From a virus: a DNA stretch of 39,273 bases. Position numbers and translations under genes: made by a program. Shown here one piece after another: positions 3,859 to 38,543 of this stretch (position 1 is its first letter; the number at the start of each line of letters is the position of its first letter). Location: IMG/VR virus record IMGVR_UViG_3300042881_004354, positions 1-39,273 of that record; one strand, given 5' to 3'. The notes below the pieces were generated by a model. The model was not told the DNA's origin, did not search any database, and was given only the letters and a program-made list of their open reading frames with translations.

Positions 3859-4086
3859 GACTGGTATAGTCAAAACCAGTTCTAAAGAGCCTGCAATGTC
3901 TAAAATGAGTGTTAACTCACTGTGCTAACTCCGGCCTTCCGCGAGCATTTAACAGAGTAAAACAGGCCCGATTCACTTGAACCCATAACTGGTCATTTCC
4001 CTTCTGTTACAGAGTAAAGAGTGACAATTTTGCATACATTTTAGGTATTTCATTGCATAACTAATAGTGCTAATTTTCACTTCGTT
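3859..4086. promoter_or_regulatory. Divergent control region between leftward genes and integrase
   Basis: A 228-bp AT-rich gap between the minus-strand early genes and the plus-strand integrase, so promoters for both directions should lie here. It holds a copy of the dispersed motif (3863-3877) inside a CTGGT/ACCAG inverted repeat. A direct repeat ACAGAGTAAA occurs at 3952-3961 and 4009-4018, a direct repeat GTGCTAA near 3922 and 4066, and TTGCATA twice before the integrase (about 4030 and 4053). Paired direct repeats beside an integrase are also what arm-type binding sites of an attP look like. I cannot point to a convincing -35/-10 pair or to the attP core. Confidence 0.6.
3863..3877 (+). 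promoter_or_regulatory. Dispersed 15-bp motif, copy 1
   Basis: GGTATAGTCAAAACC, one mismatch from the consensus GGTTTAGTCAAAACC. It is 5 bases upstream of the ATG at 3858 and in the divergent control region, oriented with the integrase. A repressor bound here could block the main leftward transcript. Confidence 0.6.
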
Positions 4087-5232
4087 ATGGCATCGCTTAC
4101 CACCCTCCCCAAGTCACCTTACTGGATAGCCCGCATGAGAGTGTGGGTTGCTGCGCCGGAAAGCCCGTCTGGCGGCTTTTGGCGACTCACCATGCGTAGC
4201 ACCAAGCTACCGCACAAAACAACCCCTAAACGCACAGCCAAGGCTTTTGCCGACGACATGGAGCGGACGGCGCGGGAGCTACGTTCGGTCAAACCGACGG
4301 CACAATGGTATGCCCATCGCGTCGATAGCCTCATGCGGCTGGCCAACATCGCCAGCCCGCGCAAGGCGGTCACTTGGACAAAGGCCGCGGAAAGTTGGGT
4401 CGAGGCCAAGACGACGGCCAAGCCCAAGACCATCGACAAATACCGCACCGACATCGCCCACTTCGCCCGCTGGCTCGGCGTGCGGGTTAGCCACGATCTG
4501 CGCGACATCACGCCCGACGACATCAGTGCCTTCTTCCGCGACCTCAAGGACAAAGGCTACTCGGATAACACGGGTGCGCTCATCATTGCCACAATCCGGT
4601 CAGTCTTCCGGCGGGCCGTCCTCCTGCGCCAGATCGACGTCAACCCTGCGGAACTACTCACCATTAGCCGTTCGGACGCGGCCAAGCGCCGGTCGTTCAC
4701 GCCCGACGAAATTGGGCGCATCCTCGCCATCGTAGACGAGGAATGGCGGGTCGCCTGCCTATTCGGACTCTATTACGGCATGCGATTGTGGGACGCCTGC
4801 AACCGATGCCACGAAGAGATCGACGGCGGCGTCTTACGCTTTGTCCCGCAAAAGAAGTCTCGCAAGGGCAAGGTAGTTGCCGTCCCCCTTATCGGGGAAC
4901 TGGCCAGCCTGCAAGGCACCGGCCCCATCACGCCGCGCCTGCACAAGCTAACGGTGTCAGTAGCCAGCGGGCAGTTCTCCCGCGTCTTGGACAAGGCTGG
5001 CATCGTCCGGTCGCGTCAGAAGGCTACCGGCAAAGGCCGCGGAGTTGTGGATGCGACCTTCCATAGCTGGCGGCATACAACCAATTCGCTACTGGTAGAC
5101 GCGGGCGTTGACCAGAAGGTGCGGCAAATGATTTGCGACCACGATACAGTCGAGATGTCCAACCGCTACACGCACGCCTCGCTGGCCACGATGAGCAAGG
5201 CGTTGGAGTCGCTGCAACAGCAGATCAAATAG
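4087..5232 (+). CDS. int: Tyrosine site-specific integrase
   Basis: A 381-aa tyrosine recombinase and the only plus-strand gene. It would recombine attP with a bacterial attB to integrate the phage. The N-terminus (KSPYWIARMRVW, then RSTKLPHKTTPKRTAKAF) looks like the arm-binding domain. A core-binding helical domain follows (about 110-200, TIDKYRTDIAHFARWL). In the catalytic domain I see Arg233 in YYGMRLWDAC, a lysine in the QKKSRKGKVVAVPL hairpin, HSWRH (His326, Arg329), His352 in CDHDTVEMS and the nucleophile Tyr361 in SNRYTHAS. All catalytic positions are present and the length is normal. No clear RBS precedes the ATG. The 3' end overlaps the convergent nuclease gene by 8 bases. No separate excisionase was recognised. 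Confidence 0.93.
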   Translation: MASLTTLPKSPYWIARMRVWVAAPESPSGGFWRLTMRSTKLPHKTTPKRTAKAFADDMERTARELRSVKPTAQWYAHRVDSLMRLANIASPRKAVTWTKAAESWVEAKTTAKPKTIDKYRTDIAHFARWLGVRVSHDLRDITPDDISAFFRDLKDKGYSDNTGALIIATIRSVFRRAVLLRQIDVNPAELLTISRSDAAKRRSFTPDEIGRILAIVDEEWRVACLFGLYYGMRLWDACNRCHEEIDGGVLRFVPQKKSRKGKVVAVPLIGELASLQGTGPITPRLHKLTVSVASGQFSRVLDKAGIVRSRQKATGKGRGVVDATFHSWRHTTNSLLVDAGVDQKVRQMICDHDTVEMSNRYTHASLATMSKALESLQQQIK

Positions 5233-5746
5233 GCCGCTCGGCCATTTCGTCAACAACTTGCCAGTTGTTACAGGCGTTGCCCGCATACCAATAAACGCAG
5301 GAAGTCCCGCGCTCGACCAATTCATTAAGCGTCCAAAAAACAAAGCACTCTTTTTCCTGCACCCACATAGCCAGCACATCAAACTCACCGCGCTGGTATC
5401 GAGTATAGCGTTTTCCGTAGTCCTTGGGATTCGCGGCGCAGGATGGCTTGCCAGACCCAGCTATGAATTTCCAACTGCCGCTTCCCTTGTCTTGATACAC
5501 TCCTTTTTTGACTTGCACCGTCACCGGCCTACCGAATGGCCGAAAGACAATGACGTCGGCTTTGGTCGCGTGACCAAACGGAACGTAGCAGTGCCAGCCG
5601 TTGCGCTGCGCCCTCACCAAAAATTCCGCTTCGGCAATGCTGCCGGACTCGCAGTTGCGCGGTGCGTCGTCGTTGACATCCGGCGAGGATTCAAACTCGC
5701 CTACGTCGAACAAGTAAGACGCGGCTCTATCCTCTCCAAGTAGCAT
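5225..5746 (-). CDS. PD-(D/E)XK nuclease-like protein, 173 aa
   Basis: A 173-aa protein. The segment SGSIAEAEFLVRAQRNGW, then KADVIVFRPFGRPVTVQVKK, follows the E...D...(E/Q)xK layout of small PD-(D/E)XK nucleases related to intron-type endonucleases and Holliday-junction resolvases. The usual acidic residue of the last motif is Gln here (QVKK), as in several real members. It is the last gene of the leftward transcript and lies between the endolysin (20-base overlap) and the convergent integrase (8-base overlap). It could act in recombination, host DNA degradation or homing. Nuclease activity is inference. Confidence 0.7.
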   Translation of the reverse strand: MLLGEDRAASYLFDVGEFESSPDVNDDAPRNCESGSIAEAEFLVRAQRNGWHCYVPFGHATKADVIVFRPFGRPVTVQVKKGVYQDKGSGSWKFIAGSGKPSCAANPKDYGKRYTRYQRGEFDVLAMWVQEKECFVFWTLNELVERGTSCVYWYAGNACNNWQVVDEMAERPI

Positions 5747-6322: not shown

Positions 6323-6323
6323 G

Positions 6324-6461: not shown

Positions 6462-6475
6462 GTTTTGACTACACC
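6461..6475 (-). promoter_or_regulatory. Dispersed 15-bp motif, copy 2 (variant)
   Basis: Reads GGTGTAGTCAAAACA in the gene direction, two mismatches from consensus. The last base is the A of the lipoprotein ATG, so a bound protein would cover the start of the lysis cassette. Confidence 0.45.
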
Positions 6476-6492
6476 CGCACGCCGGATGGGGG

Positions 6493-6955: not shown

Positions 6956-6958
6956 AAA

Positions 6959-8683: not shown

Positions 8684-9019
8684 TTACTTGACCCCTTTCA
8701 AAGTGTGATGCACATCGCGGATCGACTGATCGATCTGGTGCAGCGACTGGTTGAGTTTCTCCGCATTCGCGTGCCGCTGGTCGCGTTCTTGTTTGAGTTC
8801 GACGAGGAAAGAATCACGCGCCTTGTCCAAGTGGTTGATGAACGCCGGAGCGACCTTGACCAGCAGCATGATGGCGCTGAACGCAACCAGTCCAAAGCTG
8901 CCCAGTTCGGCCACAGTGCGAAGCCAGCCGAAGGACTCCATGACCGGCGCGGCAGTAGCAAACACGCCGAAGGTTCCGGCGGTCAGCATCGCGGCGCTGG
9001 TTTTTAGTTCAAGGATCAT
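8684..9019 (-). CDS. Membrane-anchored coiled-coil protein, 111 aa
   Basis: A 111-aa protein. Residues about 9-28 and 36-60 are hydrophobic (LGSFGLVAFSAIMLLVKVAP is the clearer segment). The rest is a long charged helix (FLVELKQERDQRHANAEKLN, then SIRDVHHTLKGVK) with heptad-like spacing. A membrane anchor plus a periplasmic or cytoplasmic coiled coil is the build of an inner-membrane spanin, so it could pair with the lipoprotein at 6324-6461. It could equally be a holin-like or structural protein. The ATG at 9019 overlaps the previous stop (ATGA). Confidence 0.65.
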   Translation of the reverse strand: MILELKTSAAMLTAGTFGVFATAAPVMESFGWLRTVAELGSFGLVAFSAIMLLVKVAPAFINHLDKARDSFLVELKQERDQRHANAEKLNQSLHQIDQSIRDVHHTLKGVK

Positions 9020-9165
9020 GGCGCTTCGTCCTTCTTAATTTCAACAATGTCCACCCCGTTGAGAAACGACTGGAGTTGCGCGACGGAAAACTCCAAGAGC
9101 ATGGCGTTTTGACTACACCGCGCCGCGGCATAGGCTTCGATCAGCTTGGCCAGTTGCTCTTTCAT
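9016..9165 (-). CDS. Small protein, 49 aa, downstream of tail fibre
   Basis: A 49-aa helical protein translated as MKEQLAKLIEAYAAARC and ending VDIVEIKKDEAP. It was read directly from the sequence because it is short. The ATG at 9165 overlaps the stop of the 68-aa gene and its TGA overlaps the ATG of the 111-aa gene, both as ATGA, which is strong support for translation. It has no membrane segment. A variant of the dispersed motif lies inside it. Function unknown. Confidence 0.65.
   Translation of the reverse strand: MKEQLAKLIEAYAAARCSQNAMLLEFSVAQLQSFLNGVDIVEIKKDEAP
9105..9119 (-). promoter_or_regulatory. Dispersed 15-bp motif, copy 3 (variant, in coding sequence)
   Basis: Reads GGTGTAGTCAAAACG, two mismatches from consensus and identical over 14 bases to copy 2 at 6461-6475. 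It lies in the 49-aa gene, encoding R-C-S-Q-N, and so in a different frame from the G-L-V-K copies. Confidence 0.4.
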
Positions 9166-9368
9166 TGCTCCTCGACTCCAAGCCATGCCAGCCAGAGGGT
9201 GTGTTCTGCGGTGGCCATTTCTTCAAAGGTTGGCGCTTCGGCGGGCGCTTCTTCACCTTCGACCGGCTCGTCGTTTTGTTGGCGGTGAAACGTGACAAGG
9301 CGCGTTGCCGTATCGTGGACAAACTCATACGTCGCGCTGGTTTCGTTGCTGTCGATTAGCGTCATCAT
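9162..9368 (-). CDS. Hypothetical acidic protein, 68 aa
   Basis: A 68-aa protein. Residues 1-30 are beta-like (SNETSATYEFVHDTATRLV). Residues 36-52 are strongly acidic (DEPVEGEEAPAEAPTFEEM) and the end is helical (AEHTLWLAWLGVEEQ). It is coupled by ATGA on both sides, between the tail fibre and the 49-aa gene. I recognise no family. Position suggests a fibre-linked or late accessory protein. Confidence 0.65.
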   Translation of the reverse strand: MMTLIDSNETSATYEFVHDTATRLVTFHRQQNDEPVEGEEAPAEAPTFEEMATAEHTLWLAWLGVEEQ

Positions 9369-10972
9369 GTGGCGTAGTAAGGAATCTTGCGACTGGTGCC
9401 GTTGATGGAGACGACAAGGTAACCAGCGGCCAAAGCGGGCAGCGTTGATCCGCCTGCGGTTGTCGAGGCGGTTGTCGCAGTGGTGCCGCTGCTGACGGTC
9501 AAGTCGCCTGCGATGTGGAGGCGGCTGGAGGGGGATCCGGTTCCAATGCCTGTGTTCCCATTGGACGCGATCCGCATGCGTTCGGTGTTGTTTGTCGTGA
9601 ACAGCATTGGATGGTTTGTGCTTGTTCCGGTGTATCCGGCAGCGGCGTCAACAAATGACAAAAGTGAAACCGTCCCGTTGCGAACAACCATGTCCGCTGT
9701 GGTTGTTCCGCTACTAAACACATCCAACTTTTTTGCTGGCGAACTCGTCCCAATCCCCACATTCCCGCTGGCGTCGATCCGCATGGCCTCCGTCCTAATG
9801 CCCGCGCTTGTCGTATACATTAGCGCAAGACCGCCGCTTACATATCCACTTGGCCCAAACCTCAATATATTCGACGGCCCTCCGGCATAGGCAAGGTCGC
9901 CAAAGCCCGCGTTTTGTGCGGAATACAGGAGGTTTCCATTTGTGTCAGCAACATGCAGTCGCGTCGTTGCCGAACTCGTCCCAATCCCCACATTCCCGCT
10001 GGCGTCGATGCGCATGCGTTCGGTGTTGTTTGTTAAAAACGCTACTGGATGGTTGCTATGTGTTCCGAAGTGTTCAACACCACTTATTTTGTATCCCACG
10101 AAAGAGGTGATGGTGCCATCGCTCAAATATAGCTTTGATGTTGTGACAGGGCTGCTTGTGGTTCCAATCAGCACATTCCCGCTGGCGTCGATCCGCATGC
10201 GTTCGGTGTTGTTTGTAGTAATCCGAAAATCGTTTCCAACGACGCCGATTCTATTCCCCTCATTCGTTGATGCGTCGTCTTGTAAAACAATTTCAGCGCC
10301 CGAATCGGTGCTTTCAAATCTTGCCACAAAATCTGTCGTGCCAGAATTTACATGAAGGGTTCGCGTTGGTGATGTCGTCCCGATCCCCACGCTTCCGGTA
10401 GTCACAACATTTTGGCTCCCGAAATTTGGAGCGATCTTTGTTCCGGCAATCGCCGCTGTAGGCGAAATGCTCAAATTGGTGATCGACTCCGGCGCGGCGT
10501 TGACGCCTGCGACCATGACGATGGCTCCGTTGGCATCCGTTCCAAAAAACTGGTTGGCGACGGCTGGGATGGCGGCGGACTCCGGCGCGGCGTCAGTCAG
10601 TCGCACGCATCGCGCCACAGCGCGGCCAAGCTGCTGGACGAGATACGTCAGCTTGTCGAGCGCACGTTCGTGGCTGGCCGCGGGGAAGTCGCCGCCTTCG
10701 GCGTAGGTCGTCGTCTGGGTTGCAGGCACTTCGCGGTAAATGGTGAGCGTGCTGGTCGTTGGGATGGCGACGGAAGTGCGGACAGTGCCGCCGTTGACGT
10801 TACCGGCTCCGGTATGATTGGTCAGCGTGACGACGCTCTCGACGCCCGCGGAGGTGCGGGCGATAGCCTTCAAGTGGCTGTTTTCTTGGAAAACAAACGG
10901 CACAGCATAACTCGTCGTGGTCGAGTTATTGCCTGCGTATTGGATTCGTGAAGTATCGGACTGAACGGCCAT
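9365..10972 (-). CDS. Tail fibre with T7-type N-terminal domain, 535 aa
   Basis: A 535-aa protein. Residues 1-130 match the T7 gp17-type virion-attachment domain: IQYAGNNSTTTSYAVPFVFQ, then LTIYREVPATQTTTYAEGGD and FPAASHERALDKLTYLVQQL. The shaft carries near-identical repeats of the form NNTERMRIDASGNVGIGTSS, separated by unique beta-rich stretches, ending with a small C-terminal part (PALAAGYLVVSINGTSRKIP). It attaches to the tail via the tubular proteins and should be the main receptor-binding fibre. The segments between repeats look more AT-rich than neighbouring structural genes, as often seen in host-range regions. The start at 10972 follows a perfect 12-mer core of the dispersed motif by 5 bases. 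Confidence 0.88.
   Translation of the reverse strand: MAVQSDTSRIQYAGNNSTTTSYAVPFVFQENSHLKAIARTSAGVESVVTLTNHTGAGNVNGGTVRTSVAIPTTSTLTIYREVPATQTTTYAEGGDFPAASHERALDKLTYLVQQLGRAVARCVRLTDAAPESAAIPAVANQFFGTDANGAIVMVAGVNAAPESITNLSISPTAAIAGTKIAPNFGSQNVVTTGSVGIGTTSPTRTLHVNSGTTDFVARFESTDSGAEIVLQDDASTNEGNRIGVVGNDFRITTNNTERMRIDASGNVLIGTTSSPVTTSKLYLSDGTITSFVGYKISGVEHFGTHSNHPVAFLTNNTERMRIDASGNVGIGTSSATTRLHVADTNGNLLYSAQNAGFGDLAYAGGPSNILRFGPSGYVSGGLALMYTTSAGIRTEAMRIDASGNVGIGTSSPAKKLDVFSSGTTTADMVVRNGTVSLLSFVDAAAGYTGTSTNHPMLFTTNNTERMRIASNGNTGIGTGSPSSRLHIAGDLTVSSGTTATTASTTAGGSTLPALAAGYLVVSINGTSRKIPYYAT
9557..10216 (-). repeat. Internal repeats in the tail-fibre shaft
   Basis: About 40-bp stretches encoding NNTERMRIDASGNV recur at roughly 9557-9597, 9995-10033 and 10178-10215. 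A shorter copy without NNTER lies near 9765-9787. The DNA copies are nearly identical, which is unusual for protein repeats and would allow recombination between units. They are in-frame coding repeats, not a CRISPR array. Confidence 0.8.
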
Positions 10973-10977
10973 GTTAG

Positions 10978-10992
10978 TGATTTGACTAAACC
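10978..10992 (-). promoter_or_regulatory. Dispersed 15-bp motif, copy 4
   Basis: Reads GGTTTAGTCAAATCA in the gene direction, with an exact 12-mer core. It lies in the 45-bp gap between the 2,782-aa gene and the tail fibre, 5 bases before the fibre ATG. A 15-bp sequence shared with 33006-33020 (GTGGCGCAATAGTTT) lies next to it at 11005-11019. Confidence 0.7.
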
Positions 10993-11004: not shown

Positions 11005-11019
11005 GTGGCGCAATAGTTT
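11005..11019 (+). repeat. 15-bp repeat GTGGCGCAATAGTTT, copy near tail-fibre motif
   Basis: Second copy of the 15-mer at 33006-33020. It overlaps the stop codon of the giant gene by two bases and lies 12 bases from dispersed-motif copy 4. Confidence 0.5.
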
Positions 11020-17000: not shown

Positions 17001-19366
17001 GTGACCCGTCCCTCGGCCATAGCCCGCTTGAGGTTGTCTTGGGCGAACTCGCGCATGACGATGGTGCCGTCCGCGCCCTCGTTGATGCGGATGATGGAGC
17101 GCCAGATGCCTTCGCGCAGTGCGCCTTGGTTGCTGCCGGTGACGGGGAAGTTGGCCAGTTCGGCGGGTTCGTTGATGTCCTGCCCGAAGGCGCGGACAGT
17201 CTCAAAGAGTCGGTCGAGGTTTTCCTGCGTCGGGTTGGCCTCGTAGTCGGTGAGCAGCGTGCGGGGTGCTTCCTCGCGGATGACCTTGGCAACGTCCTCG
17301 CCGCGCTGGCGGGCCTCGTTGACCTTCTGGATAAAGGCGACGGCTTCATTGATGCCGGTGTGGACGTCGCGCATCTCGCGCTGCACCGTCTCGCGGCGGG
17401 CGGATACCAGTGCCTGCTCGGCGGCGGTCTGGTCGGTCGTGCGGGCGAGTTCTTTGCCCTCCGGCGAGAGGACAACGTAGTCGGCCCCCTGCTTCTCCAG
17501 ACGCGGCAAGGCGGCGGGATTGGCCCTTTCGCGCAGGGCGATGGATTCGTCCACGATGCGCTGGGCGGCGGCTTTGACCAGCTTCGGGTCGCGCTTGGCG
17601 TGTTCCTCGACCAGTGCGGCTTGGGCGGCTTCGGCGCTCTCGGCTCCGGTGATGCGGTCGATCTGTTCGGGACTGTAGCCCATCTTCTCCAAGTCGGCTT
17701 TACTCTTGAGGTAGTTCTCGCCGCGGCTGATCTCGCGGTAGGACAGTGCGCCCACGCCCATGAGAGAAAGCGGAAGGAGGGCGACAAATTGCACCGCCAA
17801 TTCCCGCGGCATACCGGCGAGGCGCTCCTCCCAGTCGTAGTCGGGCATGTCGGCGTCGAGCGCCGCGGCGATGGTTTGGACAAACGGGAAGGTGGCGTTT
17901 TGCATGATCTCCTGCACGTTTTGCTCGGCCACGATTCCGGCCCCACCGATGGCGATGCGGGTGATGTTTCGCTGGTTGGGGTGTTGCAGGCGTTTGACTA
18001 AACCGCCAAAGACGGGCAGGCGTCCGGTAATCGTGTTGACCTTCATGCGCTCCAGACCGGCTTCGATGGGCGCGGAGATGGCGGCGATGAGCGCGGCCTT
18101 GTCGGGATCGATGCCGCGATATTCCAGCATGATGCGGTCGTAGTTGCTGCTAAACAGCGCGGAGGCCACGGCGGGAACGCCCGCAACCGGCACCGCGGCG
18201 GCGGCGGTGTAAGGGATGCTGCGGGCGGCTCCGTAAAGCCCCTCCTCAATCCATTCCGGCAAGAAGGTGACGGTCTGGATGGGATCGACGACGCGCTCGG
18301 CCAAGTCGCGCAATTCGCGCTCGACCATCAAAACCCCAAGGTCGGCTTGGATCTTGGCTTTGGCTTCCTCGCGTTCCTCCGGCGTGACCGGCGTTTGGCC
18401 TGCGGCGCTGAACTCGGCCCCGCCAATGCCCGCGGCGCGAAAGACCGGCTGGTTGCTTTCCAAAAGGCGAAGCTGACCGCGGAGCGTTTGCTCGCGGAAG
18501 TTGCGCGGAATGGCCTCGGTGAACGCTGCGCCACCGCGGCCAAGGGATTCGGCCAACTGATACCAAAAGCCTTTGTCGGTCTGGTTGAGTTGGGCAAAGC
18601 CTCCGGCCAGTTCGTAGATGGCTTGGCGCTGGGCGTCGGGTAGCTGGGCGAAACGTGCGGCCATTTCGCGCATGTCGGGCGCTCCGAAGCCGGTCTTTTG
18701 TCCGGTGGACTGCTGGAGGGCGTCGAAGATGAAGCGGGCCTCCGGTGCAAATTTGTCCTGCGAGGCGCGGATTTTCATGTCAAGTTCCTCGGCCTTCTCC
18801 CACAGGCGGGACTTTTCCTCGTCGTCGAACATCTCGGAGGCGGCATTGATGTCCTTGCCGACGCTTTCGACAAAAGGCGTGTCGCCGCCGGAGAGCGCGT
18901 CTTCCAAGCTGCGGCGGATGACGCCTTGCAGGATCTGATCGGCGGCGGCTTTCTTTTCGTTGCTGCGCTCAAATTGACCCTTTTGCCAGTCGAACATTTC
19001 GCGGGCGCTGGCCGTCTGCTTGCCCAACACCTTCTGGGCAAAGCCTTCCCTTTCCGCATCGAAGATCGACCGCATGTCGTCGAGCGGCACCTTGCGGGTG
19101 TCGGCCAAGTAGCCGATCATCGCTTGCCGGTAGACGTAGTCGTCGCCGTGCAGGCTGACCTTGGCTCCCTCGGTCATGCCCTTCTGCTTGGCGATGGAGT
19201 CGAAGTAGTTCTGGTCGGTAAAGACTTTGTTCCAGTGGCCCAGATCGACGTAGGGCGCGTTGTAGCCGCTGCGGCGACTCGGAGGCGCTCCGGCGCTGGG
19301 GTCGGTGTAAGTCCGCGCCTGCTGGGCTTCCTTGGACTGCGGGGTGGCGGCGAAGGAAATACTCAT
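11018..19366 (-). CDS. Giant polyvalent virion protein with ADP-ribosyltransferase-like domain, 2782 aa
   Basis: A 2,782-aa protein, likely ejected with the DNA. Approximate layout: 1-330 helical head part. 360-560 has hydrophobic stretches (PYTAAAAVPVAGVPAVASAL; ELAVQFVALLPLSLMGVGAL). About 1080-1370 is an ART-PolyVal-type ADP-ribosyltransferase domain: IKAWHGSPAEFDEFDLGKVG, YGYGLYFAE and the closing YVIFDDSLIKIL. About 1410-1540 resembles the polyvalent-associated LPD3 domain (RFAIPVAIDGEIYASHFTV). About 1640-1800 contains AGYVLPDGTMLDFSGR and RGIDHREIEWD, frequent in phage polyproteins. 1810-2780 is a long helical region with a hydrophobic FYVLVLNGLVGTII near 2640. Five (N/S)YSI motifs separate the middle domains. 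It is coupled by ATGA to the transglycosylase protein. By analogy with DarB/polyvalent proteins it may protect incoming DNA and modify host targets. Confidence 0.8.
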   Translation of the reverse strand: MSISFAATPQSKEAQQARTYTDPSAGAPPSRRSGYNAPYVDLGHWNKVFTDQNYFDSIAKQKGMTEGAKVSLHGDDYVYRQAMIGYLADTRKVPLDDMRSIFDAEREGFAQKVLGKQTASAREMFDWQKGQFERSNEKKAAADQILQGVIRRSLEDALSGGDTPFVESVGKDINAASEMFDDEEKSRLWEKAEELDMKIRASQDKFAPEARFIFDALQQSTGQKTGFGAPDMREMAARFAQLPDAQRQAIYELAGGFAQLNQTDKGFWYQLAESLGRGGAAFTEAIPRNFREQTLRGQLRLLESNQPVFRAAGIGGAEFSAAGQTPVTPEEREEAKAKIQADLGVLMVERELRDLAERVVDPIQTVTFLPEWIEEGLYGAARSIPYTAAAAVPVAGVPAVASALFSSNYDRIMLEYRGIDPDKAALIAAISAPIEAGLERMKVNTITGRLPVFGGLVKRLQHPNQRNITRIAIGGAGIVAEQNVQEIMQNATFPFVQTIAAALDADMPDYDWEERLAGMPRELAVQFVALLPLSLMGVGALSYREISRGENYLKSKADLEKMGYSPEQIDRITGAESAEAAQAALVEEHAKRDPKLVKAAAQRIVDESIALRERANPAALPRLEKQGADYVVLSPEGKELARTTDQTAAEQALVSARRETVQREMRDVHTGINEAVAFIQKVNEARQRGEDVAKVIREEAPRTLLTDYEANPTQENLDRLFETVRAFGQDINEPAELANFPVTGSNQGALREGIWRSIIRINEGADGTIVMREFAQDNLKRAMAEGRVTIDFVRQQLNDILPQIDSDRMDRQLRTETDTDVIEAFSDVALAYFRGQIRDEQIPAGLRGFIRRLAIFTRDIFRRAYNLARLRAEGKLDRDFEALLAEAVGVDQQALVDRSREKTAQEVAPDGRGVDGLTDDERFALEQELQAEMERDAAEAAGEGGIDIVDAVRDAGGLPAKTSSKVYQYSGELQRIREASKGGNAIGVKGVFNLFRKNAPDLDALIKDLQTMGFNQITTPSDLFDMVERRIMTGRPIYGYEAAATAQTMDNYSIGSRVQPDVERNLVTLPDVTISGPANYSIKAWHGSPAEFDEFDLGKVGTGEGAQVYGYGLYFAERIQTAEEYRKGVSAMKQQRMTRVFLDGYDISTWLAGDLAIRHSLKRSTAEKLHDLVVRGIDSPIKIDGRNALKKELGDRLEIEITDNPKVDGSIYNVLLDVEADELIDWDLPLSQQSKRVRNALSFVNAPLEYTGRQAYEIAADEYARKQDPKVFGAIKAGSPAISKMLNEKGIKGIRYLDQGSRVNGDPLAIRTEIAIQKNLLKGWDKAKWLSAEQQESGKQAVLDKIAKLKVDLKRAESSTEGTYNYVIFDDSLIKILTRNGEQISVEQAAQETQNYSIGPSSKSVAPIQITFPQENIPSDIKNLRHYIRRMIAETLQGKSVVIERTGTEVKFTAESKAESVSKARTAIQAAPMLEAEQIVLNGIPVDVSEPDPKKKTYEGTRKFRRFAIPVAIDGEIYASHFTVREPNDFDENVGVFYEFNLGQKMEPRDMGLPPAFASRPSEDGSPFDLDSAISIAALVNKVKSNDKAEQQTLVLESFNYSIAAAQEQRKADVAITPDTPVAKSINGVSAEDIFASAKKRFGITNSIYEAGYVLPDGTMLDFSGRSQASGYKRDGATFRPTDGQGDYLRDSRGIDHREIEWDGMPEYTETWGSMADFLRLGAVRIDGNSGTISMRSRLRPTSAQLRVLKDLVTSADGAYLDLEDDLGNGTAMMLESGKWTRVHGFLERWANGETPSVTRSYSISTQSEIDRVGAALNRLDRDPLERVKIYEKAQEKFLRVMADNRDMLAGMQDGDLAQMRRTQILQALGELDGIISVLPPEVRSKIGGYTQLAKVDPMDVFKGDQKVSEVRGMSGAIISAWMREGLNIGEAQKKTELPAGYRAERNLDPTRADRAIADVFIQRINRINEALEKFLRDEYNTAAVELFKRAKPQRSGAGEKPKGKLGADVHDLFDKLKEATEWSAEEAQAYADGQWARIENGELNPYEETHAMMAAQMVPLFADWANADSSQRAAAVTMGKDVLNRAYKGEQQRIIAQRTKRGYDRTDLSKDAGVSAEDDKARQDALKRENSLPSKWESAMLNLLNFDQVLRYVFGNDSKIARQISDRQRKADNAKSDDIAALSDEWAAFLSELGGGEMQGQQLLFELSRMDEEIDGVSYSQNQLMAISMMWMQPKGRQHMEGFFDSDGQPAGKWHYNQDFVNKAEKLLRGEAKAIRQYLLDKYDAEYEAINKVYRKVYGLNLPKNQFYSPLVVESIRAPQQAGIDPVTGGVFAAGANSPSALRSRGGAIAQPVFRDAVQTYFGHMLQMAHWKAYAEFNGEVSALLGHRDTRNVVKGKAGEQAATVMNNWLQYFQQGGNKDAANHLAINQMINRMTGNFATMALFGRISTLALQVTQLGAASAKMPVGAYLSRFGKLMSGRLGWKTALDSAYIQRRIKDMPPAVALAMQGLRSEKPNAIREAARRIGSLISGFDGLFTAGTYAIVYDYQMTQARQNGMGGQEAADYAREATERIVDEIAQPTRAGARSIFEINSTNPVARAVWAFSSEARKNLGLGLYAGAKGSGKDFGKAVFYVLVLNGLVGTIIRNAFRDLRDDDDEETFDEKNWGWNRMAAMLISDPLYGFPVVGEAVESAIFNAFGVYTPSGPLFDIAPAVPAAKRMLTEYPAQVLEGEAEFRDIVRDVNRILSTAGLFNNTIAGAAAISNLVKDTVEVGDNVFSGEQ
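17990..18004 (-). promoter_or_regulatory. Dispersed 15-bp motif, copy 5 (in coding sequence)
   Basis: Reads GGTTTAGTCAAACGC with an exact 12-mer core. It lies inside the giant gene and encodes G-L-V-K in frame (FGGLVKRLQ). Confidence 0.5.
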
Positions 19367-21618
19367 GCCATGCCAAGGGCCGCGGCTTTCTTGGACAGGC
19401 GCTCGCGCACCCAGTCCATGAAGTCTTGGTTGGTTTGAATATCAGCCAGCCACTTGTTGGCGCGGATCACGCGGGCGGCGTGGCCCTTGCCTCCGGTGGC
19501 GTCGAGCGTCTGGCGGAAGTCACCGTCGGGGTTCTTGAGGATGGCAGGCCCAGCCCCGATGCCTTGGTAATGCACAACATAAAGTTCAAAGGGGTCGGGG
19601 TCGCGGCCAAGGGCGCGGCGGGCGGCGTTGATGTTCTCCTTGGTTTTGGCTAAACCGGCGCGGATCTGGCCGTCGAGACTGCTGTCGCTGCCAAAGCGTT
19701 TGCGGTCGGCGTTGAGTAGCTGGAAGAGTCCGCGGGCCGACGAGGTGCTGATCGTCTGGTCGGGGTTGAAATTGCTTTCCTGCGCGACCAAGAGCATGAG
19801 GTGCGGCGTGTATTGGCCCAAGCCCTCGGCTTCGGCCATGCTGGCAATCTGGCCCGCGATGGGTTGCTTGGCCGGAGGGAGGTTCGACACGCTGAAATTT
19901 TCGGAGGAGGGCGCGGGCGGCATGCCTTGCACCGGAGGAAGCGGTTCGTCGGCGTCTTGCAGTCCGTCCATAGGCGACCCGCCAAAGCCGCGGAAACCCA
20001 GACCGGCGGTCATCACGTTGGGGTTGTTGGCCGTCGGGTTCATGGCGAAGTCGGCCCAAGTGGCGACGTCCATGATGGACTTCCACCATGCGTCCTCTTC
20101 TTCCGGCTTGTTCATAAACGAAGCCGCCGGATCAAGGTATGGCTCGACGATGCCCCTAAAACGATCTTGCGCCTGCTCAATGGTAAGGTCGGGGTTGTCT
20201 TTAACCATGTCGCGGATCTCGTTGATCACTTGCTGGCGCTTGGTCTGCACGTTGAGCCACGCACTGACGTCTTGTGGTTTGGTCACAGTGACATCGCCGC
20301 GCTGCTCTTTCTTCCATTTGCCCGCATCGCCAAACTGGCCCCACTCGGCCAGACTGGTGGTTTGGTTGATGAGGTTTCTGGTGATCTCGTCGGTGCGCGA
20401 TTTCTGACCTTGGTTGGCTTTCGATACCATGCCATCGAGCGTGTCCATGAAAGGCTTGCGCTGGCCCTCCGGCGCGGTCGTGACGATCTCGCTGATGAGG
20501 CGCTGGTATTCACGCTTGTGCGTGTCGGGATCAGCCATGCTGATGTCCTTCTCCGCGTTGTAGGAAAAGATTTTCTGCCAGAGGTCGCTGAACTTCGTGG
20601 CCTGCTCGGCTTGCCCTTCCGGTGTGTCGGCATACTTGAAGCCGCGGTATTCTTTCATCTTGTTGATGAGTTCCCGCGGCGCATCGATGTCGGGACGAGT
20701 GTAAAACTTTTCGATGTCTTCGTTGGTGATGGCGGCGCTCTCGGTTTCCAGACTGGTGAGCATCTGGTTGTTGAGGTCGTCGAGAAGCTGGGCGTGGGTT
20801 CCCTCGGCCATGCGCCGGAATTGCAGGACTTGTTCGGGGCGTAGCTTGTGGGGGTTCTTGCCTTCCTTCTGATACTTGGCCAGTTCGCCGCGCCACTGGG
20901 CGGGGTTTTGCTGAATGGCGCTGGTCATGGTGTTGACCTTCTGCTCCTCCTCAAATTTCAAAATTTTCGCGTCGGCTTCTTCTTTGCTAAACACCCCAGC
21001 CTGCGCCCCGCGCTGGTAATAGGCCATGCCGTCTTCAATGCGTCCTTCGTTAAAGGCGCGCTGCGCGCCGTTTTCAATGCTCTGGCGGTAGTTGTTGACC
21101 CGCTGCACCGCGGCCTTGCCCCGCACCTCGGCAGCGGTCTTGACGCGCAGGGTGTTAATTGACTGCTCCAGCTTGCTGGAAGAAAGCGGGCTGCTCATGC
21201 GGAGACTGGCCCCGCGCTCGGCCAGTTGATTGTCATACTTTTGCCAGACGTTCTCCCACTGGTCGGCGGGCTTGGTCAAAACTTCTTCCTCAAAGCGCGA
21301 GACAACGTCGGTCTTGATGGCGTCGAGTTCGGCCATTTGCGCCTCGTCGTGGGCGCGGCCCAAGCGCACGGCAAAATCGCCCAGCGCGTTGGAGGCCCGC
21401 ATTCCCGCGCCGCCCAGAATTTCCATGCCCGCGCCTGTGCCTCCGGTGTCAAAAGCGGCTTCGGGCAGCGGCTGCGGTTGCAGCATGCTCATGCCTTGGG
21501 CGACAAGTTGACCGGCCCCGCGCAGGCTGGGCGTGCGAATGGACGACGGATCGGTCAGCACCGCGGAGTTGCCGGTCTGCGGAGCGTTGGGAATTTGGGC
21601 TACGGGGATGTTGGCCAT
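19363..21618 (-). CDS. Internal virion protein with C-terminal lytic transglycosylase, 751 aa
   Basis: A 751-aa protein. The first 550 residues are mostly helical and charged, typical of podovirus ejection proteins (T7 gp15/gp16-like in role, not clearly homologous). At about 590-730 is an SLT-type lytic transglycosylase: LMLLVAQESNFNPDQ (catalytic Glu in QES), STSSARGLFQLLNADRKRFG and FELYVVHYQGIGAGPAIL. It would locally cut peptidoglycan as the DNA enters. I chose the ATG at 21618 (MANIPVAQIPN), 4 bases after the previous gene; a longer frame would overlap that gene. The end overlaps the giant gene by ATGA, and the two products probably act together in ejection. Confidence 0.85.
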   Translation of the reverse strand: MANIPVAQIPNAPQTGNSAVLTDPSSIRTPSLRGAGQLVAQGMSMLQPQPLPEAAFDTGGTGAGMEILGGAGMRASNALGDFAVRLGRAHDEAQMAELDAIKTDVVSRFEEEVLTKPADQWENVWQKYDNQLAERGASLRMSSPLSSSKLEQSINTLRVKTAAEVRGKAAVQRVNNYRQSIENGAQRAFNEGRIEDGMAYYQRGAQAGVFSKEEADAKILKFEEEQKVNTMTSAIQQNPAQWRGELAKYQKEGKNPHKLRPEQVLQFRRMAEGTHAQLLDDLNNQMLTSLETESAAITNEDIEKFYTRPDIDAPRELINKMKEYRGFKYADTPEGQAEQATKFSDLWQKIFSYNAEKDISMADPDTHKREYQRLISEIVTTAPEGQRKPFMDTLDGMVSKANQGQKSRTDEITRNLINQTTSLAEWGQFGDAGKWKKEQRGDVTVTKPQDVSAWLNVQTKRQQVINEIRDMVKDNPDLTIEQAQDRFRGIVEPYLDPAASFMNKPEEEDAWWKSIMDVATWADFAMNPTANNPNVMTAGLGFRGFGGSPMDGLQDADEPLPPVQGMPPAPSSENFSVSNLPPAKQPIAGQIASMAEAEGLGQYTPHLMLLVAQESNFNPDQTISTSSARGLFQLLNADRKRFGSDSSLDGQIRAGLAKTKENINAARRALGRDPDPFELYVVHYQGIGAGPAILKNPDGDFRQTLDATGGKGHAARVIRANKWLADIQTNQDFMDWVRERLSKKAAALGMA
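19642..19656 (-). promoter_or_regulatory. Dispersed 15-bp motif, copy 6 (variant, in coding sequence)
   Basis: Reads GGTTTAGCCAAAACC, one mismatch from consensus with both arms intact. It lies in the transglycosylase domain, encoding G-L-A-K-T in frame. Confidence 0.45.
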
Positions 21619-21622
21619 AAAA

Positions 21623-22803: not shown

Positions 22804-22818
22804 GGTTTAGTAAAATCA
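22804..22818 (+). promoter_or_regulatory. Dispersed 15-bp motif, copy 7 (variant, reversed)
   Basis: GGTTTAGTAAAATCA on the plus strand, against the direction of transcription. It lies in the 24-bp gap just upstream of the GNAT-like gene (ATG at 22802). Three mismatches from the 15-mer, all in the right half. Confidence 0.4.
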
Positions 22819-27216: not shown

Positions 27217-27231
27217 GGTTTTGACTAAACC
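27217..27231 (-). promoter_or_regulatory. Dispersed 15-bp motif, copy 8 (perfect)
   Basis: GGTTTAGTCAAAACC in the gene direction, a perfect match, directly upstream of the capsid Shine-Dalgarno sequence. A protein bound here would sit between any capsid promoter and the gene. Confidence 0.75.
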
Positions 27232-27395
27232 GGCGTCGTGCCGATCTCGTCGGGTTGATTGGTTGTGGTGTCCTCGGCGCTACCGATTATCCGCGAACGC
27301 GGGTCGTCGGCCTTGGGCTGCCGTCGGACAGGCTCCACAAGGAGTTGTCTGCCTAACTGTGCGCGAGAATTGCGCTGCGCCGGAAGTGGCGCAAG

Positions 27396-27410
27396 GGTTT
27401 AGTCAAAAAA
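27396..27410 (+). promoter_or_regulatory. Dispersed 15-bp motif, copy 9 (reversed)
   Basis: GGTTTAGTCAAAAAA on the plus strand, with the exact 12-mer core, 164 bp from copy 8 and facing it. The preceding bases are GTGGCGCAA (27386-27394), also found near copies 4 and 11. A facing pair flanking a promoter-sized interval would suit looping by one repressor. Confidence 0.65.
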
Positions 27411-29961: not shown

Positions 29962-29976
29962 TGTTTTGACTAAACC
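29962..29976 (-). promoter_or_regulatory. Dispersed 15-bp motif, copy 10
   Basis: GGTTTAGTCAAAACA in the gene direction with the exact 12-mer core, 19 bases upstream of the scaffold ATG and 4 bases after the stop of the 96-aa gene. One mismatch to the 15-mer. Confidence 0.7.
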
Positions 29977-32590: not shown

Positions 32591-32920
32591 TTAACCCAAA
32601 AGACTGTTGCCCGTCACGGGATTGGTGTAGCCGCCGGTTTCACCGGCCAGAACGGACTTTCTCACGCCCTCGCGCCTTCCTGCCGATTGCCGCGCCTGCA
32701 TCTGGGCATCGCTCACCGTTTGATCCACGCGCTCTGGGATGGGTGGCGCTGGCGGCGGTGCCTCCGGCATTTTTGGCATTTCCGGCATCTTGAACTCCGG
32801 CATGGGCGGCATTTGAAACACCGGCATGGCAGGCATGGGAGGCGGTGCGCTTTGCCGTCCACCGCCGCCGAAGTGGCAACGGCACGTTAGGTCAATCTTG
32901 GACGAGTGATAGTTTCGCAT
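32591..32920 (-). CDS. Pro/Met-rich protein with SLLG ending, 109 aa
   Basis: A 109-aa protein. After a short N-terminus with CRCHFGGGG comes a stretch of MP repeats (MPAMPVFQMPPMPEFKMPEM), then KSVLAGETGGYTNPVTG and NSLLG. The ending matches that of the next gene (AGNTGG.., SLLG). The CxC-HFGGGG element is also common at this position in podoviruses. The proline-rich part should be extended. It starts inside the 129-aa gene (29-base overlap). Probably a minor structural protein. Confidence 0.65.
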   Translation of the reverse strand: MRNYHSSKIDLTCRCHFGGGGRQSAPPPMPAMPVFQMPPMPEFKMPEMPKMPEAPPPAPPIPERVDQTVSDAQMQARQSAGRREGVRKSVLAGETGGYTNPVTGNSLLG

Positions 32921-33281
32921 ATTTTTGAGTAAGTTTGTCGGTCGAAAAGAAAGTCAGCGGATGGCCACTCCTCTCCCATGCGATGAGCGGAAGATAAAAC
33001 GGTATGTGGCGCAATAGTTTTTTGACTAAACCCTGCAAGCCTTGATCGTCGGCCAAGGCAAAGGCGTAGACATACCACGCATCCCAGTCCTTGCGCTGGA
33101 AGCCACACCAGACGTCGTTGATTATCTCCTGCGGTGCGGCACTGCAAACCGGACGCGCCATCATCACATACTCCGGCGTGCTAAAAAAACAGCCATGCGA
33201 GAGGTGCGCCAGCATGTCTTCCTCAAACGTCCGCGGGCTGTCCGCGGTGTAGAGCAGTTTGCACTTTTGAATCGGCGTCAT
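32892..33281 (-). CDS. Hypothetical protein downstream of terminase, 129 aa
   Basis: A 129-aa protein: EEDMLAHLSHGCFFSTPEYV and MMARPVCSAAPQEIINDVW, then an aromatic-rich DWDAWYVYAFALADDQGL, and HIPFYLPLIAWERSGHPLTF. The HLSHGCxxSTPEYxxMARPV pattern is shared by a podovirus family next to TerL, of unknown function. It is coupled to TerL by ATGA, suggesting a packaging or virion role. It contains copy 11 of the dispersed motif, encoding G-L-V-K-K. Confidence 0.7.
   Translation of the reverse strand: MTPIQKCKLLYTADSPRTFEEDMLAHLSHGCFFSTPEYVMMARPVCSAAPQEIINDVWCGFQRKDWDAWYVYAFALADDQGLQGLVKKLLRHIPFYLPLIAWERSGHPLTFFSTDKLTQKYAKLSLVQD
33006..33020 (+). repeat. 15-bp repeat GTGGCGCAATAGTTT, copy near 129-aa gene motif
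   Basis: An identical 15-mer occurs at 11005-11019. The first nine bases, GTGGCGCAA, also occur at 27386-27394. All three are within about 15 bases of a copy of the dispersed motif. A single 15-mer pair could be chance in a genome this size. The shared company of the motif is what makes it notable. Confidence 0.5.
33018..33032 (-). promoter_or_regulatory. Dispersed 15-bp motif, copy 11 (in coding sequence)
   Basis: GGTTTAGTCAAAAAA in the gene direction, with the exact 12-mer core. It lies in the 129-aa gene, encoding G-L-V-K-K in frame (LQGLVKKLL). Confidence 0.55.
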
Positions 33282-35217: not shown

Positions 35218-35238
35218 GCGTCTTTTCTACTCTGATGG

Positions 35239-35901
35239 TCAAATTAAAACATTGACCGCTTGGTCGTTTGGTTTCCTTAAATATCCTTCCTTACTTGGTT
35301 TCGCTCCTGCCTGTGCGCTATTGAGTCGTGCGTAGTCCTCCGGTTTGGCCTTGTGGCACGCGATGAAAGTCTCGGTCGCATCTTCCGCTGGCGCATTGCA
35401 TGTAAATCGGGAGTCGTTCTCCGGTATTACGCGGATCAGATGCAAATTGATCGCTACCGTCGCATCGCTGCTCCGGTGGTGCCGCACCAGTTCTCCATGC
35501 CAGTGTCGCTGTTGCAACGCCAGCGCGGTCGCCCGCGAGAGCGCGTAGCCGCACCCGCCATGAATGGATGGAAATTTGTGGGTGTCGTTGGATAGCACGC
35601 CCTGCACGCATCCAATGGCGTGATGCTCGTCGGGATTGAGGTCGATCAGTCGCAGTTCCAAGCGCCTTGGAACGACGTAGCCGTCGTCGTCCACGATGTA
35701 GAGCCAGTCGTAGTGCGGCTGGAACGTGTCGAGCGCGTAAATCGTCTTGTCTATCGCGCTCAAGTAGTCCCCTCGCCCCACATGCTCGTCGCTGACAAAG
35801 CGGACGGTGCTGGGTTTTTGAACGTGTCGCGTCCAGTTTTCGCACAGCGTGCGCCGGTCGCGGGTGCGCTCGCTCGTTTGGATGGCGTAGTCGATCTTCA
35901 T
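35239..35901 (-). CDS. Fringe/GT31-like glycosyltransferase, 220 aa
   Basis: A 220-aa protein with the GT-A pattern of the Fringe/GT31 family. It has TSERTRDRRTLCENW near residue 9, DWLYIVDDDGYVVPRRL with a DDD metal-binding motif at 71-73, IHGGCGYALSRATALAL (compare GGAGxxxS) at 114-130, SSDATVAINLHLIRV at 144-158 (compare DDxTxGxxL) and FIACHKAKPEDY at 179-190. It would transfer a sugar from a nucleotide donor to a protein, glycan or DNA acceptor. This family is mainly eukaryotic, and phage members are few. No signal peptide, so it is cytoplasmic. It lies upstream of terminase in the main transcript. The start at 35901 overlaps the previous stop. Activity is inference. Confidence 0.72.
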   Translation of the reverse strand: MKIDYAIQTSERTRDRRTLCENWTRHVQKPSTVRFVSDEHVGRGDYLSAIDKTIYALDTFQPHYDWLYIVDDDGYVVPRRLELRLIDLNPDEHHAIGCVQGVLSNDTHKFPSIHGGCGYALSRATALALQQRHWHGELVRHHRSSDATVAINLHLIRVIPENDSRFTCNAPAEDATETFIACHKAKPEDYARLNSAQAGAKPSKEGYLRKPNDQAVNVLI

Positions 35902-36107
35902 GGGTTTTGCCATCCTTCGTCCGGTTTGTTGCGCCAACCCCAGTGCGTGTAGTCTTCGTAAAAGCGCGGCTCGTAGCGTTGTGTCCACGACGCCATTTCC
36001 AGCCAGCGCCACTCCCCGCGCATTTCTTTGGGAAAAATAAGAAAGCGCCTAACAATGCGCCGGTCGCCGCTGTTGGGCTGCGGCTTGTTGTTTTCGTGCC
36101 ATCTCAT
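35898..36107 (-). CDS. Hypothetical protein, 69 aa, W/R-rich
   Basis: A 69-aa protein: RRFLIFPKEMRGEWRWLEMA, then WTQRYEPRFYEDYTHWGWRN. The FLxFPKxxxGExRWLExxxxxQxY pattern is a recurring small phage protein family of unknown function. It is very aromatic and basic. Its stop overlaps the glycosyltransferase start, so the two may be a functional pair, but this is only position. Confidence 0.7.
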   Translation of the reverse strand: MRWHENNKPQPNSGDRRIVRRFLIFPKEMRGEWRWLEMASWTQRYEPRFYEDYTHWGWRNKPDEGWQNP

Positions 36108-36114
36108 AGTTTGG

Positions 36115-37036: not shown

Positions 37037-37149
37037 GGGAAAAGGTTCCGGCGGGTCGCGGTTAGCGTCATACCGCGACGGCCCCCACACACATATCGGG
37101 CGATTGCCACATGCACGTTGACACAGCCTTTGCCGCCGGAAAGTTTCAT
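37033..37149 (-). CDS. Small basic protein, 38 aa
   Basis: A 38-aa basic frame translated as MKLSGGKGCVNVHVAIARYV and ending TLTATRRNLFP. The ATG overlaps the stop of the 68-aa gene and the stop overlaps the next ATG, both as ATGA, which is the best evidence for it. No function is seen. Confidence 0.5.
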   Translation of the reverse strand: MKLSGGKGCVNVHVAIARYVCGGRRGMTLTATRRNLFP

Positions 37150-37352
37150 CGTCTTTTGGTTTTGACTAAACCGCGCCGAAAGTATTGCGGATTGCGTTCC
37201 ATCCACGCGACCACTTCGCCGGTATTGCCGACGTCCGCGGCGCGAAAGGCGTTGTCGGAAACGAGGTAGCAACGCTCTGCGAGAATGTTCATCACCGTAA
37301 TCTCGTCATCGTGCAGGACGTTCTGGATGTAGGACTCCAGCGTGTTGGGCAT
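37146..37352 (-). CDS. Hypothetical protein, 68 aa
   Basis: A 68-aa protein: LESYIQNVLHDDEITVMNIL, then CYLVSDNAFRAADVGNTGEV and a closing WMERNPQYFRRGLVKTKRR. The ...VAWMERNPQYFRRGLVK end is directly encoded by a perfect copy of the dispersed motif. It starts inside the end of the 133-aa gene (46-base overlap). No recognised family; possibly a small regulator. Confidence 0.65.
   Translation of the reverse strand: MPNTLESYIQNVLHDDEITVMNILAERCYLVSDNAFRAADVGNTGEVVAWMERNPQYFRRGLVKTKRR
37158..37172 (-). promoter_or_regulatory. Dispersed 15-bp motif, copy 12 (perfect, in coding sequence)
   Basis: GGTTTAGTCAAAACC in the gene direction, a perfect match. It encodes G-L-V-K-T at the end of the 68-aa protein and is 8 bases upstream of the ATG of the 38-aa gene. 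Confidence 0.65.
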
Positions 37353-37707
37353 GCGTGGATTTTATGGGTGTGGTCAAATGCCGCTGCTCAAAATTGGCGG
37401 CATAATTTCCACGCTCAACCTCCAGCTTGTAGTAAGCAAAAGAAACCATGCCCAATATGTGAGCGTCTGTTGGGACAAAATATTTCCATCCAGCAGACAT
37501 TCCTTTGCTTATGTAATAACAAAAAAACGCTGCTTTTTTTCCGGTGTCTTTTTTTAAAATAAGTGTCGCTGTCGCGTCTGACATTGGAATGATTTCGCTT
37601 ACTTCAAAGGTTTCTTTGTTGAAGTTCCCTTCGCGGTCTTGGCGCGAAAACCGTCGCGCCAACTCGTCGGCAAATCTTTGTAGTTCGTGAGCTAAATGCT
37701 TGTTCAC
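37306..37707 (-). CDS. Hypothetical protein, 133 aa, early operon
   Basis: A 133-aa protein from a GTG start: NKHLAHELQRFADELARRFS, a beta-rich middle (SEIIPMSDATATLILKKDTG, KKAAFFCYYISKGMSAG) and an end SFAYYKLEVERGNYAANFE. The core looks like a small single-domain protein, and no motif is recognised. The DNA of this gene is noticeably more AT-rich than its neighbours (poly-A and poly-T runs around 37420-37560), which may reflect recent acquisition. The GTG overlaps the previous stop (GTGA). Confidence 0.6.
   Translation of the reverse strand: MNKHLAHELQRFADELARRFSRQDREGNFNKETFEVSEIIPMSDATATLILKKDTGKKAAFFCYYISKGMSAGWKYFVPTDAHILGMVSFAYYKLEVERGNYAANFEQRHLTTPIKSTHAQHAGVLHPERPAR
37367..37381 (+). 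promoter_or_regulatory. Dispersed 15-bp motif, copy 14 (weak variant)
   Basis: GGTGTGGTCAAATGC, with several mismatches but the GGT...GTCAAA frame intact. It is 14 bases upstream of the ATG of the 68-aa gene, oriented against transcription. Included as a low-confidence member. Confidence 0.25.
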
Positions 37708-38543
37708 GCTGCCACCACCCCTTCTAACTCGCGGATCTTCTCGCGGATGCGGGCGACCTCGGCCTTGGCCTCCGGCTTCCACTCGGTTTCCCAAGGTGTC
37801 TGCGCTTTATGCTGTCGCAAACGGGGGTCGCCCTTCATTCGCTCCAGCTTCGCTTTTAAGGCGTCGATGCCCTGTTTGGCATCCCAGACGCCGCGGGGTT
37901 TAGTCAAAGCCGTGGCGGGGCGTTTACGCTCGTTCTCGGCCCAATGTGATGCAAAGCGTGATAGGTCATGCGGCATGGACTTGATCGGGATCGCATTTCG
38001 ATCCACCCAACCTACCGCTTCGCGGGCGTCGTAATACGCCTTGCACACTTCCGGCGTTACGCTGGCCATCTGACCGGCTGCGACAACCTCCTCCAAAGTC
38101 CACCCGCGGCGGATAGATAGATCCATAGAAGATGAAGATGAAGAAGAAGGGGTTGGTTTTTGCTTGCCGGTTTGCTTAACCAAATTCCCAAGCAAAAGCG
38201 GGTTGCCCCCCTTGCTTCCGGCCTCGGCCCGAATCTGTCTAATCTCCTCATCACGAACCATTCGCCGCGAAAAGATCGCGCCATTTTCGTCGCGGGAGAA
38301 CACTTTATTCTCCTCCAGTTCTTTCAATAATTTGAGGCAGGTTTGCGGCGACAAACCCACAAGTTTTGCGAGGGTTTTGTGCGAGAAACCCCTGCCGTTT
38401 TGCGTGAGTTTGCCGTATTCGTCGCACTCATGGGCGATGCACATCATCTCGACCCACAGCCCTCGCGCCGCCAGCGAGCAGAGCCGGAGGCCGGAGTCGT
38501 TGCGCCAGTCCGACGGATAGAATTGAAAGGATGGGCGCTTCAC
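37704..38543 (-). CDS. Phage replisome-organiser/DnaT-like protein, 279 aa
   Basis: A 279-aa protein from a GTG start that overlaps the RusA stop (GTGA). The N-terminus RPSFQFYPSDWRNDSGLRLC and SLAARGLWVEMMCIAHECDE is typical of phage replication proteins with a YPxDWxxDxxxxxxSxxARGLWxxM entry. Then comes a winged-helix segment SHKTLAKLVGLSPQTCLKLL (about 53-75), a Ser-rich linker PTPSSSSSSSMD and a C-terminal domain (ITPEV-like, then FASHWAENERKRPATAL) as in DnaT-like or primosomal proteins. It should bind the replication origin and recruit the host helicase. No polymerase or helicase is encoded, in keeping with dependence on the host. Confidence 0.75.
   Translation of the reverse strand: MKRPSFQFYPSDWRNDSGLRLCSLAARGLWVEMMCIAHECDEYGKLTQNGRGFSHKTLAKLVGLSPQTCLKLLKELEENKVFSRDENGAIFSRRMVRDEEIRQIRAEAGSKGGNPLLLGNLVKQTGKQKPTPSSSSSSSMDLSIRRGWTLEEVVAAGQMASVTPEVCKAYYDAREAVGWVDRNAIPIKSMPHDLSRFASHWAENERKRPATALTKPRGVWDAKQGIDALKAKLERMKGDPRLRQHKAQTPWETEWKPEAKAEVARIREKIRELEGVVAA
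37897..37911 (+). promoter_or_regulatory. Dispersed 15-bp motif, copy 13 (reversed, in coding sequence)
   Basis: GGTTTAGTCAAAGCC on the plus strand with the exact 12-mer core, inside the replication gene. The gene strand encodes A-L-T-K-P there, so the G-L-V-K reading does not apply to this copy. Confidence 0.5.

Follow-up and report, generated by a model that had tools for sequence, protein, structure and literature searches.

The closest described counterparts of the repeat considered here are the stoperators of Cluster A phages. In these temperate genomes many copies of a site of about 13 bp are distributed over the genome and at gene borders, one of them at an early promoter, and the consensus shifts by subgroup with genome relatedness (PMC3029335, PMC6550527). 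Reversal of the L5 sites abolishes repression (PMC9283540). A dispersed word, GGTTTAGTCAAA, recurs in a similar manner in IMG/VR virus record IMGVR_UViG_3300042881_004354, which was analysed over its whole length of 39,273 bases (the window). An earlier note on this DNA had compared the word to a stoperator-type repressor network, and this is still the best functional analogy that can be offered. The copies are probably double-stranded DNA sites for one phage-encoded, sequence-specific protein, forming a genome-wide, stoperator-like repressor network; the candidate binder is the product of o3652, the first leftward gene of the window.

As in Cluster A (L5 gp71, Bxb1 gp69 and the TipsytheTRex repressor), the sites are short and dispersed, lie at gene borders with one near the early gene, and have a group-specific consensus. 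They number 7-14 per complete or near-complete genome of ~39 kb, each 14-15 bp long, fewer than the L5 set but of the same kind (Cluster A phages have about 20-30 sites of 13 bp). Cluster A phages are siphoviruses whose sites are asymmetric and mainly in short intergenic gaps, with a consensus that co-evolves with the repressor; the virion genes here are T7-like, half of the copies here are intragenic, and the word is near-palindromic. The Streptomyces phage R4, which has an actinobacterial host, is alike by description: its repressor sites occur at many intergenic places and are thought to block RNA polymerase (PMC10276819).

Eight exact copies of GGTTTAGTCAAA are present where the earlier note had placed them, except that minus-strand copies had been given by the low end of a 15-mer, hence an offset of 3 bases. 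Its six variants were also found, five with one mismatch and the one at 37367 with two. At up to two mismatches the window contains 17 matches, far above the counts in dinucleotide-shuffled sequences (mean 1.67, maximum 5, n = 100). When the 14-mer GGTTTAGTCAAAAC is used instead, again allowing up to two mismatches, the count is 14. Seven of these sites are intergenic, while intergenic DNA makes up 4.2% of the genome (binomial P = 6e-7). The logo of the site core extends over 14-15 bases with flanks that are not conserved. It is asymmetric, its right end being weaker in the group to which the window belongs; yet read as GGTTT-N5-AAACC the site is near-palindromic, and at the early gene it forms a dyad.

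Relatives of the window were gathered by a terminase search (79 IMG/VR loci) and then by a portal search from a distant relative; no DNA relatives were found in the phage collection. Close relatives from the terminase search share the word of the window, and a group at 65% terminase lacks it. By de novo word counting, the latter group was found to use GGATTAGTCGAAAA at the same kinds of places, and other single lineages to use GGTCTAGTCAAAAC, GGTTTAGTCAAAAA or GGTTTCAGTCAA. The portal search added two groups, another large one that uses GGTATCAGTCAAAAC and a smaller one that uses GGTGTCAGTCAAGAC. Seven versions of the site thus occur among related IMG/VR genomes (GGTTTAGTCAAAAC, GGTCTAGTCAAAAC, GGTTTAGTCAAAAA, GGATTAGTCGAAAA, GGTTTCAGTCAAAA, GGTATCAGTCAAAAC and GGTGTCAGTCAAGAC), and the groups were labelled A (the window), B (GGTCT), C (AAAAA), D (GGATT), E (GGTTTC), F (GGTATC) and H (GGTGTC). 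One locus, L082, has another repeat. At up to one mismatch to the word of their own group, 308 sites were counted in 36 genomes or long contigs, and the reversed pattern gave none. The versions are mostly exclusive to their own group, D and H fully so; A, B and C overlap because they are one or two bases apart, and so do E and F. Of the 13 positions of the L5 consensus GGTGGMTGTCAAG, the group H version GGTGTCAGTCAAG shares 11 (chance about 0.005 with all comparisons taken into account), and groups A-D share 7-8, which is the chance level.

The relatives conserve the sites at homologous places, as the proposal of a repressor network had implied, though in group-specific spellings. In gene 32892-33281 every one of the seven groups has its own version of the site close to codon 84, and all seven also have a site ~145-200 bases upstream of the capsid gene. 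Sites just before the capsid, scaffold, GNAT-like, tail-fibre, portal or terminase genes recur in several groups, as do those at the 3' end of gene 37146 and inside the replication gene. The word has thus changed in concert at a dozen unlinked places, indicating a co-evolving DNA-binding factor, which from these genome comparisons is most likely encoded by the phage. Dispersed asymmetric intergenic motifs in Nostoc cyanophages (PMC4916379) and T1/TLS-like coliphages (PMC11447400) have been likened to stoperators by their authors; they come from single genomes or small sets, and in the available text of those reports concerted change at homologous places is not demonstrated. Many copies stand at gene or module borders, as would sequences that mark recombination boundaries and aid module exchange. 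However, copies also occur in group-specific form at a fixed codon of gene 32892 and in other genes, and concerted change is not expected of linkers, which makes this the least probable of the explanations weighed here.

The statement that most copies point with transcription is true of 9 of the 14 sites in the window; the other five are opposed, and the direction does not persist at homologous sites. The fibre-start site runs with the gene in group A and against it in groups B-E. The capsid and scaffold sites share the direction of the gene in A, B and D but oppose it in F, a group in which nearly all sites have one direction. These flips argue for double-stranded DNA rather than RNA as the recognised unit, and suggest that orientation is not essential to the sites. 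Constraint at the DNA level is also seen within genes, where the copies force the use of rare TTA codons (4 of the 26 in the window, which has 965 leucine codons among 12,484 codons in total) and where the encoded GLVK becomes GLVE in group D.

These observations bear on the idea that the word acts at the RNA level ahead of start codons, as a translation enhancer or start-associated sequence. An ATG follows within 0-20 bases of the end of several copies, and 9/14 run with the gene. The placement resembles that of the Cluster K start-associated sequences, 13-bp words that lie 3-7 bp before start codons and mostly in one orientation (PMC3203893). Those words contain a Shine-Dalgarno core, are found mainly in the non-structural half of the genome and suggest a role in translation (PMC3203893), whereas here the word has no such core (AGGAG is absent from it, and the GGAG found after the capsid-gene site is separate from it), structural genes are prominent and the evidence is at the DNA level. 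Given in addition the fixed intragenic copies and the reversed copies that homologous starts carry between groups, an RNA-level element is scarcely credible.

The window has a terminal direct repeat of 104 bases and is therefore taken as a complete circular or circularly permuted phage genome of ~39.2 kb. Its portal and capsid proteins match phage connector and head families. The T7-like virion genes and a tyrosine integrase gene bear out the description of an integrase-bearing podovirus type. Essentially all genes are transcribed leftward except the integrase gene (4087..5232, plus strand), which is divergent from the leftward operon. The leftward series begins at ~3.87 kb with small genes of DNA-binding-like proteins followed by RecT-type and PDDEXK-type recombination genes, and continues past the genome ends with a RusA resolvase, a replisome organiser, an SSB-like gene and the terminase, virion and lysis genes. 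A Fringe-like glycosyltransferase gene (35239-36012, minus strand) adjoins the terminase genes.

The sites at start codons are those expected from the earlier note: first leftward gene, lysis, tail fibre, GNAT-like gene, capsid and scaffold. Site 1 (3863-3876, minus strand; GGTATAGTCAAAAC on the plus strand) lies within a dyad, ACTGGTTTTGACTATACCAGT, that is longer than the core (3860..3880) and ends a single base ahead of the first leftward gene's start codon (3858), making it a candidate early operator; its homologues in groups A-D adjoin or overlap the same start codon. Site 2 (6462..6475, minus strand; GGTGTAGTCAAAAC) directly precedes the ATG (6461) of an open reading frame (ORF) for an o-spanin-like lipoprotein in the lysis region. 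Site 4 (10979..10992, minus strand; GGTTTAGTCAAATC) lies 6 bases before the ATG of the tail-fibre gene 9365-10972. Site 7 (22804..22817, plus strand; GGTTTAGTAAAATC), 1 base before the ATG of the GNAT-like gene, is reversed relative to the gene, as it is throughout groups A-D. Site 8 (27218..27231, minus strand; GGTTTAGTCAAAAC(C)) lies 14 bases before the ATG of the major capsid gene, and site 9 (27396..27409, plus strand), which is reversed, 192 bases before it; the latter is the site with a counterpart in 7/7 groups. Site 10 (29963..29976, minus strand; GGTTTAGTCAAAAC) lies 20 bases before the scaffold ATG.

The other sites fall within or at the ends of genes. Site 3 (9106..9119, minus strand; GGTGTAGTCAAAAC) is within the small ORF 9016-9186, 3 bases before an internal ATG. 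Site 5 (17991..18004, minus strand; GGTTTAGTCAAACG) is within the gene of a virion protein of 2782 amino acids (11018-19366, minus strand), which has a large-polyvalent-protein domain, LPD3, and a weak ADP-ribosyltransferase match and is probably an injected multi-domain protein. Gene 19363-21621 contains site 6 (19643..19656, minus strand; GGTTTAGCCAAAAC) and a weak site with two mismatches (21269..21282, plus strand) that is probably background. Site 11 (33019..33032, minus strand) is at codon 84 of gene 32892-33281, where it encodes GLVKK, and site 12 (37159..37172, minus strand; GGTTTAGTCAAAAC(C)) is at the 3' end of gene 37146-37352. Site 13 (37897..37910, plus strand; GGTTTAGTCAAAGC) is reversed within the replisome-organiser gene, where groups B and D also have a site.

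Outside group A, the far-upstream capsid site supplies the hexamer TTGACT, with a -10-like hexamer 16-18 bases further on, more frequently than is seen at other sites (P = 1e-5, an optimistic value because the genomes are related). The -35 element of a putative capsid promoter would thus seem to lie under the binder. The overlap is the exception among the sites: a set of phage or sigma-70 promoters was rejected as an explanation of the word, its copies overlapping start codons, lying within genes and flipping. The arrangement could also be read as that of a phage-encoded activator or timing factor that switches on the late genes, many sites being at such genes (capsid, scaffold, portal, terminase, fibre and lysis). 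Most sites, however, abut or overlap start codons or are intragenic rather than upstream of a promoter, the non-A capsid site covers the -35 element, and relatives without the motif have the same kind of late genes; an activator is therefore unlikely. In the prophage, and perhaps in early infection too, a repressor would occupy the capsid promoter as well as the site of the first leftward gene and block initiation. Bound at the other gene starts and the fixed intragenic places, it would stand in the way of RNA polymerase as a roadblock.

Between sites 8 and 9 lies a conserved, structured RNA leader of the capsid gene, ~90 bases long (27267..27354, minus strand). When genomes of groups A-H are folded one by one, most form an identical or almost identical nested long hairpin, whose arms include TGTCC/GGACA, TGCTCCC/GGGAGCA and CTGCCC/GGG-ACAG. 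The single-sequence z-scores are modest (-0.3 to -1.5). RNAalifold gave only 10 pairs, four with changes on both sides, from an automatic alignment that misplaces the 3' arm. The leader matches no family in Rfam 15 and is new-looking. It is also present in G018, a relative without the motif, and is thus a feature separate from the sites. In F and H phages (L223, L233, L234, L139 and others) a tRNA-Met (CAT) gene precedes the leader; it is absent from the window.

Integrase and o3652 are present in every motif-bearing genome that covers the early region. The relatives without the motif, one near-complete and the others partial, gave no match to integrase, o3652 or RecT. As just one of them is near full length, the association of the motif with integrase is support and not proof. 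In the early regions of group F, o3652 begins directly after the integrase stop codon, and among the loci of group F type found through o3652 three integrase types, two helix-turn-helix (HTH) types of the HTH_17 family and four ribbon-helix-helix (RHH) types are freely combined. The HTH_17 types in F (e.g. L264 and L296) mostly follow the integrase type, and the HTH_17 protein accordingly looks like a cognate excisionase. A second repeated word, GGTTACTAAAAC, is present in three copies per o3652 locus in L250, L257, L261, L264, L266, L279 and L286; these copies are perhaps integrase arm sites. An HNH endonuclease gene was seen in the early operon of G015, L055:2811-3356 and L057, three phages with a different RHH pair.

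The early operon has a common order in the groups: o3652, small RHH proteins, an HTH protein and RecT. The only non-virion families universal in motif genomes that cover this region are o3652, integrase and RecT. The integrase was rejected as the binder, three types sharing the same motif. The gene o3652 (3652..3858, minus strand) encodes a basic helical protein of 68 amino acids and has a site at its own start codon. A search with o3652 only returned 65 viral loci of F type, 62 of which have the F motif, two of the other three being shorter than 5 kb; the motif is thus kept through the exchanges of integrase, HTH_17 and RHH types. The predicted structure has three helices (mean predicted local distance difference test score, pLDDT, 81). 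Judged by this pattern of inheritance, o3652 ranks first as the site-binding factor, a tentative choice. Second, and fairly unlikely, is o2005 (2005..2223, minus strand), a HTH-like protein of 72 amino acids, or whatever occupies its slot, which in F is the HTH_17 protein. A segment of o2005 resembling a recognition helix covaries with the motif in groups A-E (TFASAM in nearly all of A, other spellings in B-E).

The binders proposed in the earlier note did not stand. Groups C, E and F lack a homologue of the winged-helix protein (27984-28394). The RHH pair, consisting in the window of an Arc-like protein with a weak match (2207..2419, minus strand) and an RHH-like protein assigned by eye and without a Pfam match (3223..3450, minus strand), is swapped while the motif is unchanged: one pair type is shared by genomes with motifs A, E and F, and those with motif F have four pair types among them.

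A chromosomal gene in a genome of the phylum Verrucomicrobiota (L241:1501-1968, plus strand) combines an o3652-like N-terminus with a long lysine/alanine-rich tail like that of histone H1, and adjoins a gene identified by eye as topoisomerase-like. It is possible, though doubtful, that the whole network is read by o3652 as a new family of basic helical proteins of ~65 amino acids akin to the N-terminal domain of this histone-H1-like protein, a nucleoid-type protein that, in a T7-like temperate lineage, would have gained sequence specificity and become an immunity repressor and roadblock. The shared domain and the genome-wide spread of the sites would also suit a nucleoid-like phage protein that organises or segregates the genome with little effect on single genes. 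The strong preference of the sites for intergenic DNA and gene starts, and their presence at the early gene and the capsid promoter, make such a role very improbable.

Several observations weigh against a stoperator-like network read by o3652. The protein is not HTH-like by sequence, and a search of the PDB gave no fold match to the models of o3652 and o2005 and no convincing sequence match to either. In phage G425 the integrase-o3652 pair is accompanied by other virion genes and a dispersed word is absent, showing that o3652 is not sufficient for the network, and the o3652 types do not track motif groups A-D cleanly. The alternative, o2005, follows the motif in A-E, yet no homologue is present in F or H contigs. 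In group A the far-upstream capsid site has no clear -10-like element, and only half of the sites in the window are intergenic. Cluster A sites have one orientation, whereas orientation here is mixed and flips. No homologue of the Cluster A repressor, with its HTH and stoperator domains, was identified, a result obtained without direct comparison against Cluster A repressors. Because of the mixed orientation and the missing homologue, the network is not filed as a member of the Cluster A system. Of the original proposal, a network of binding sites stands, with its conserved places, concerted change and integrase-bearing genomes; the named binders do not, the orientation is mixed, and repression is the probable reading.

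In the genome collection the only match with the motif was a metagenome bin assigned to Verrucomicrobia that holds a group F genome. Its sites at up to one mismatch are confined to its two phage contigs. On one contig (L315 and L170; G023 contig C79, 1-36 kb) a siphovirus-like phage with its own integrase is joined, as judged by eye, to the F-group phage, which may be an assembly join or adjacent elements; this second phage makes a Verrucomicrobia host tentative. The sites might instead serve a host regulator, the seven versions mirroring different hosts, since the groups could infect different hosts and the phage-encoded binder is only a candidate. Such an origin is very unlikely given the confinement of the sites to phage contigs, in what is a messy bin, and the joint absence of the early genes and the motif from the motif-less relatives.

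Stoperator immunity is documented in actinobacterial phages. If unrelated, T7-like temperate phages have such a network, with at least seven site versions retained at homologous places, then silencing of a prophage through many dispersed sites would have a wider origin or spread. The seven versions, together with the naturally reassorted early regions, constitute a ready specificity series for finding the binder and for testing superinfection immunity groups in uncultured phages.

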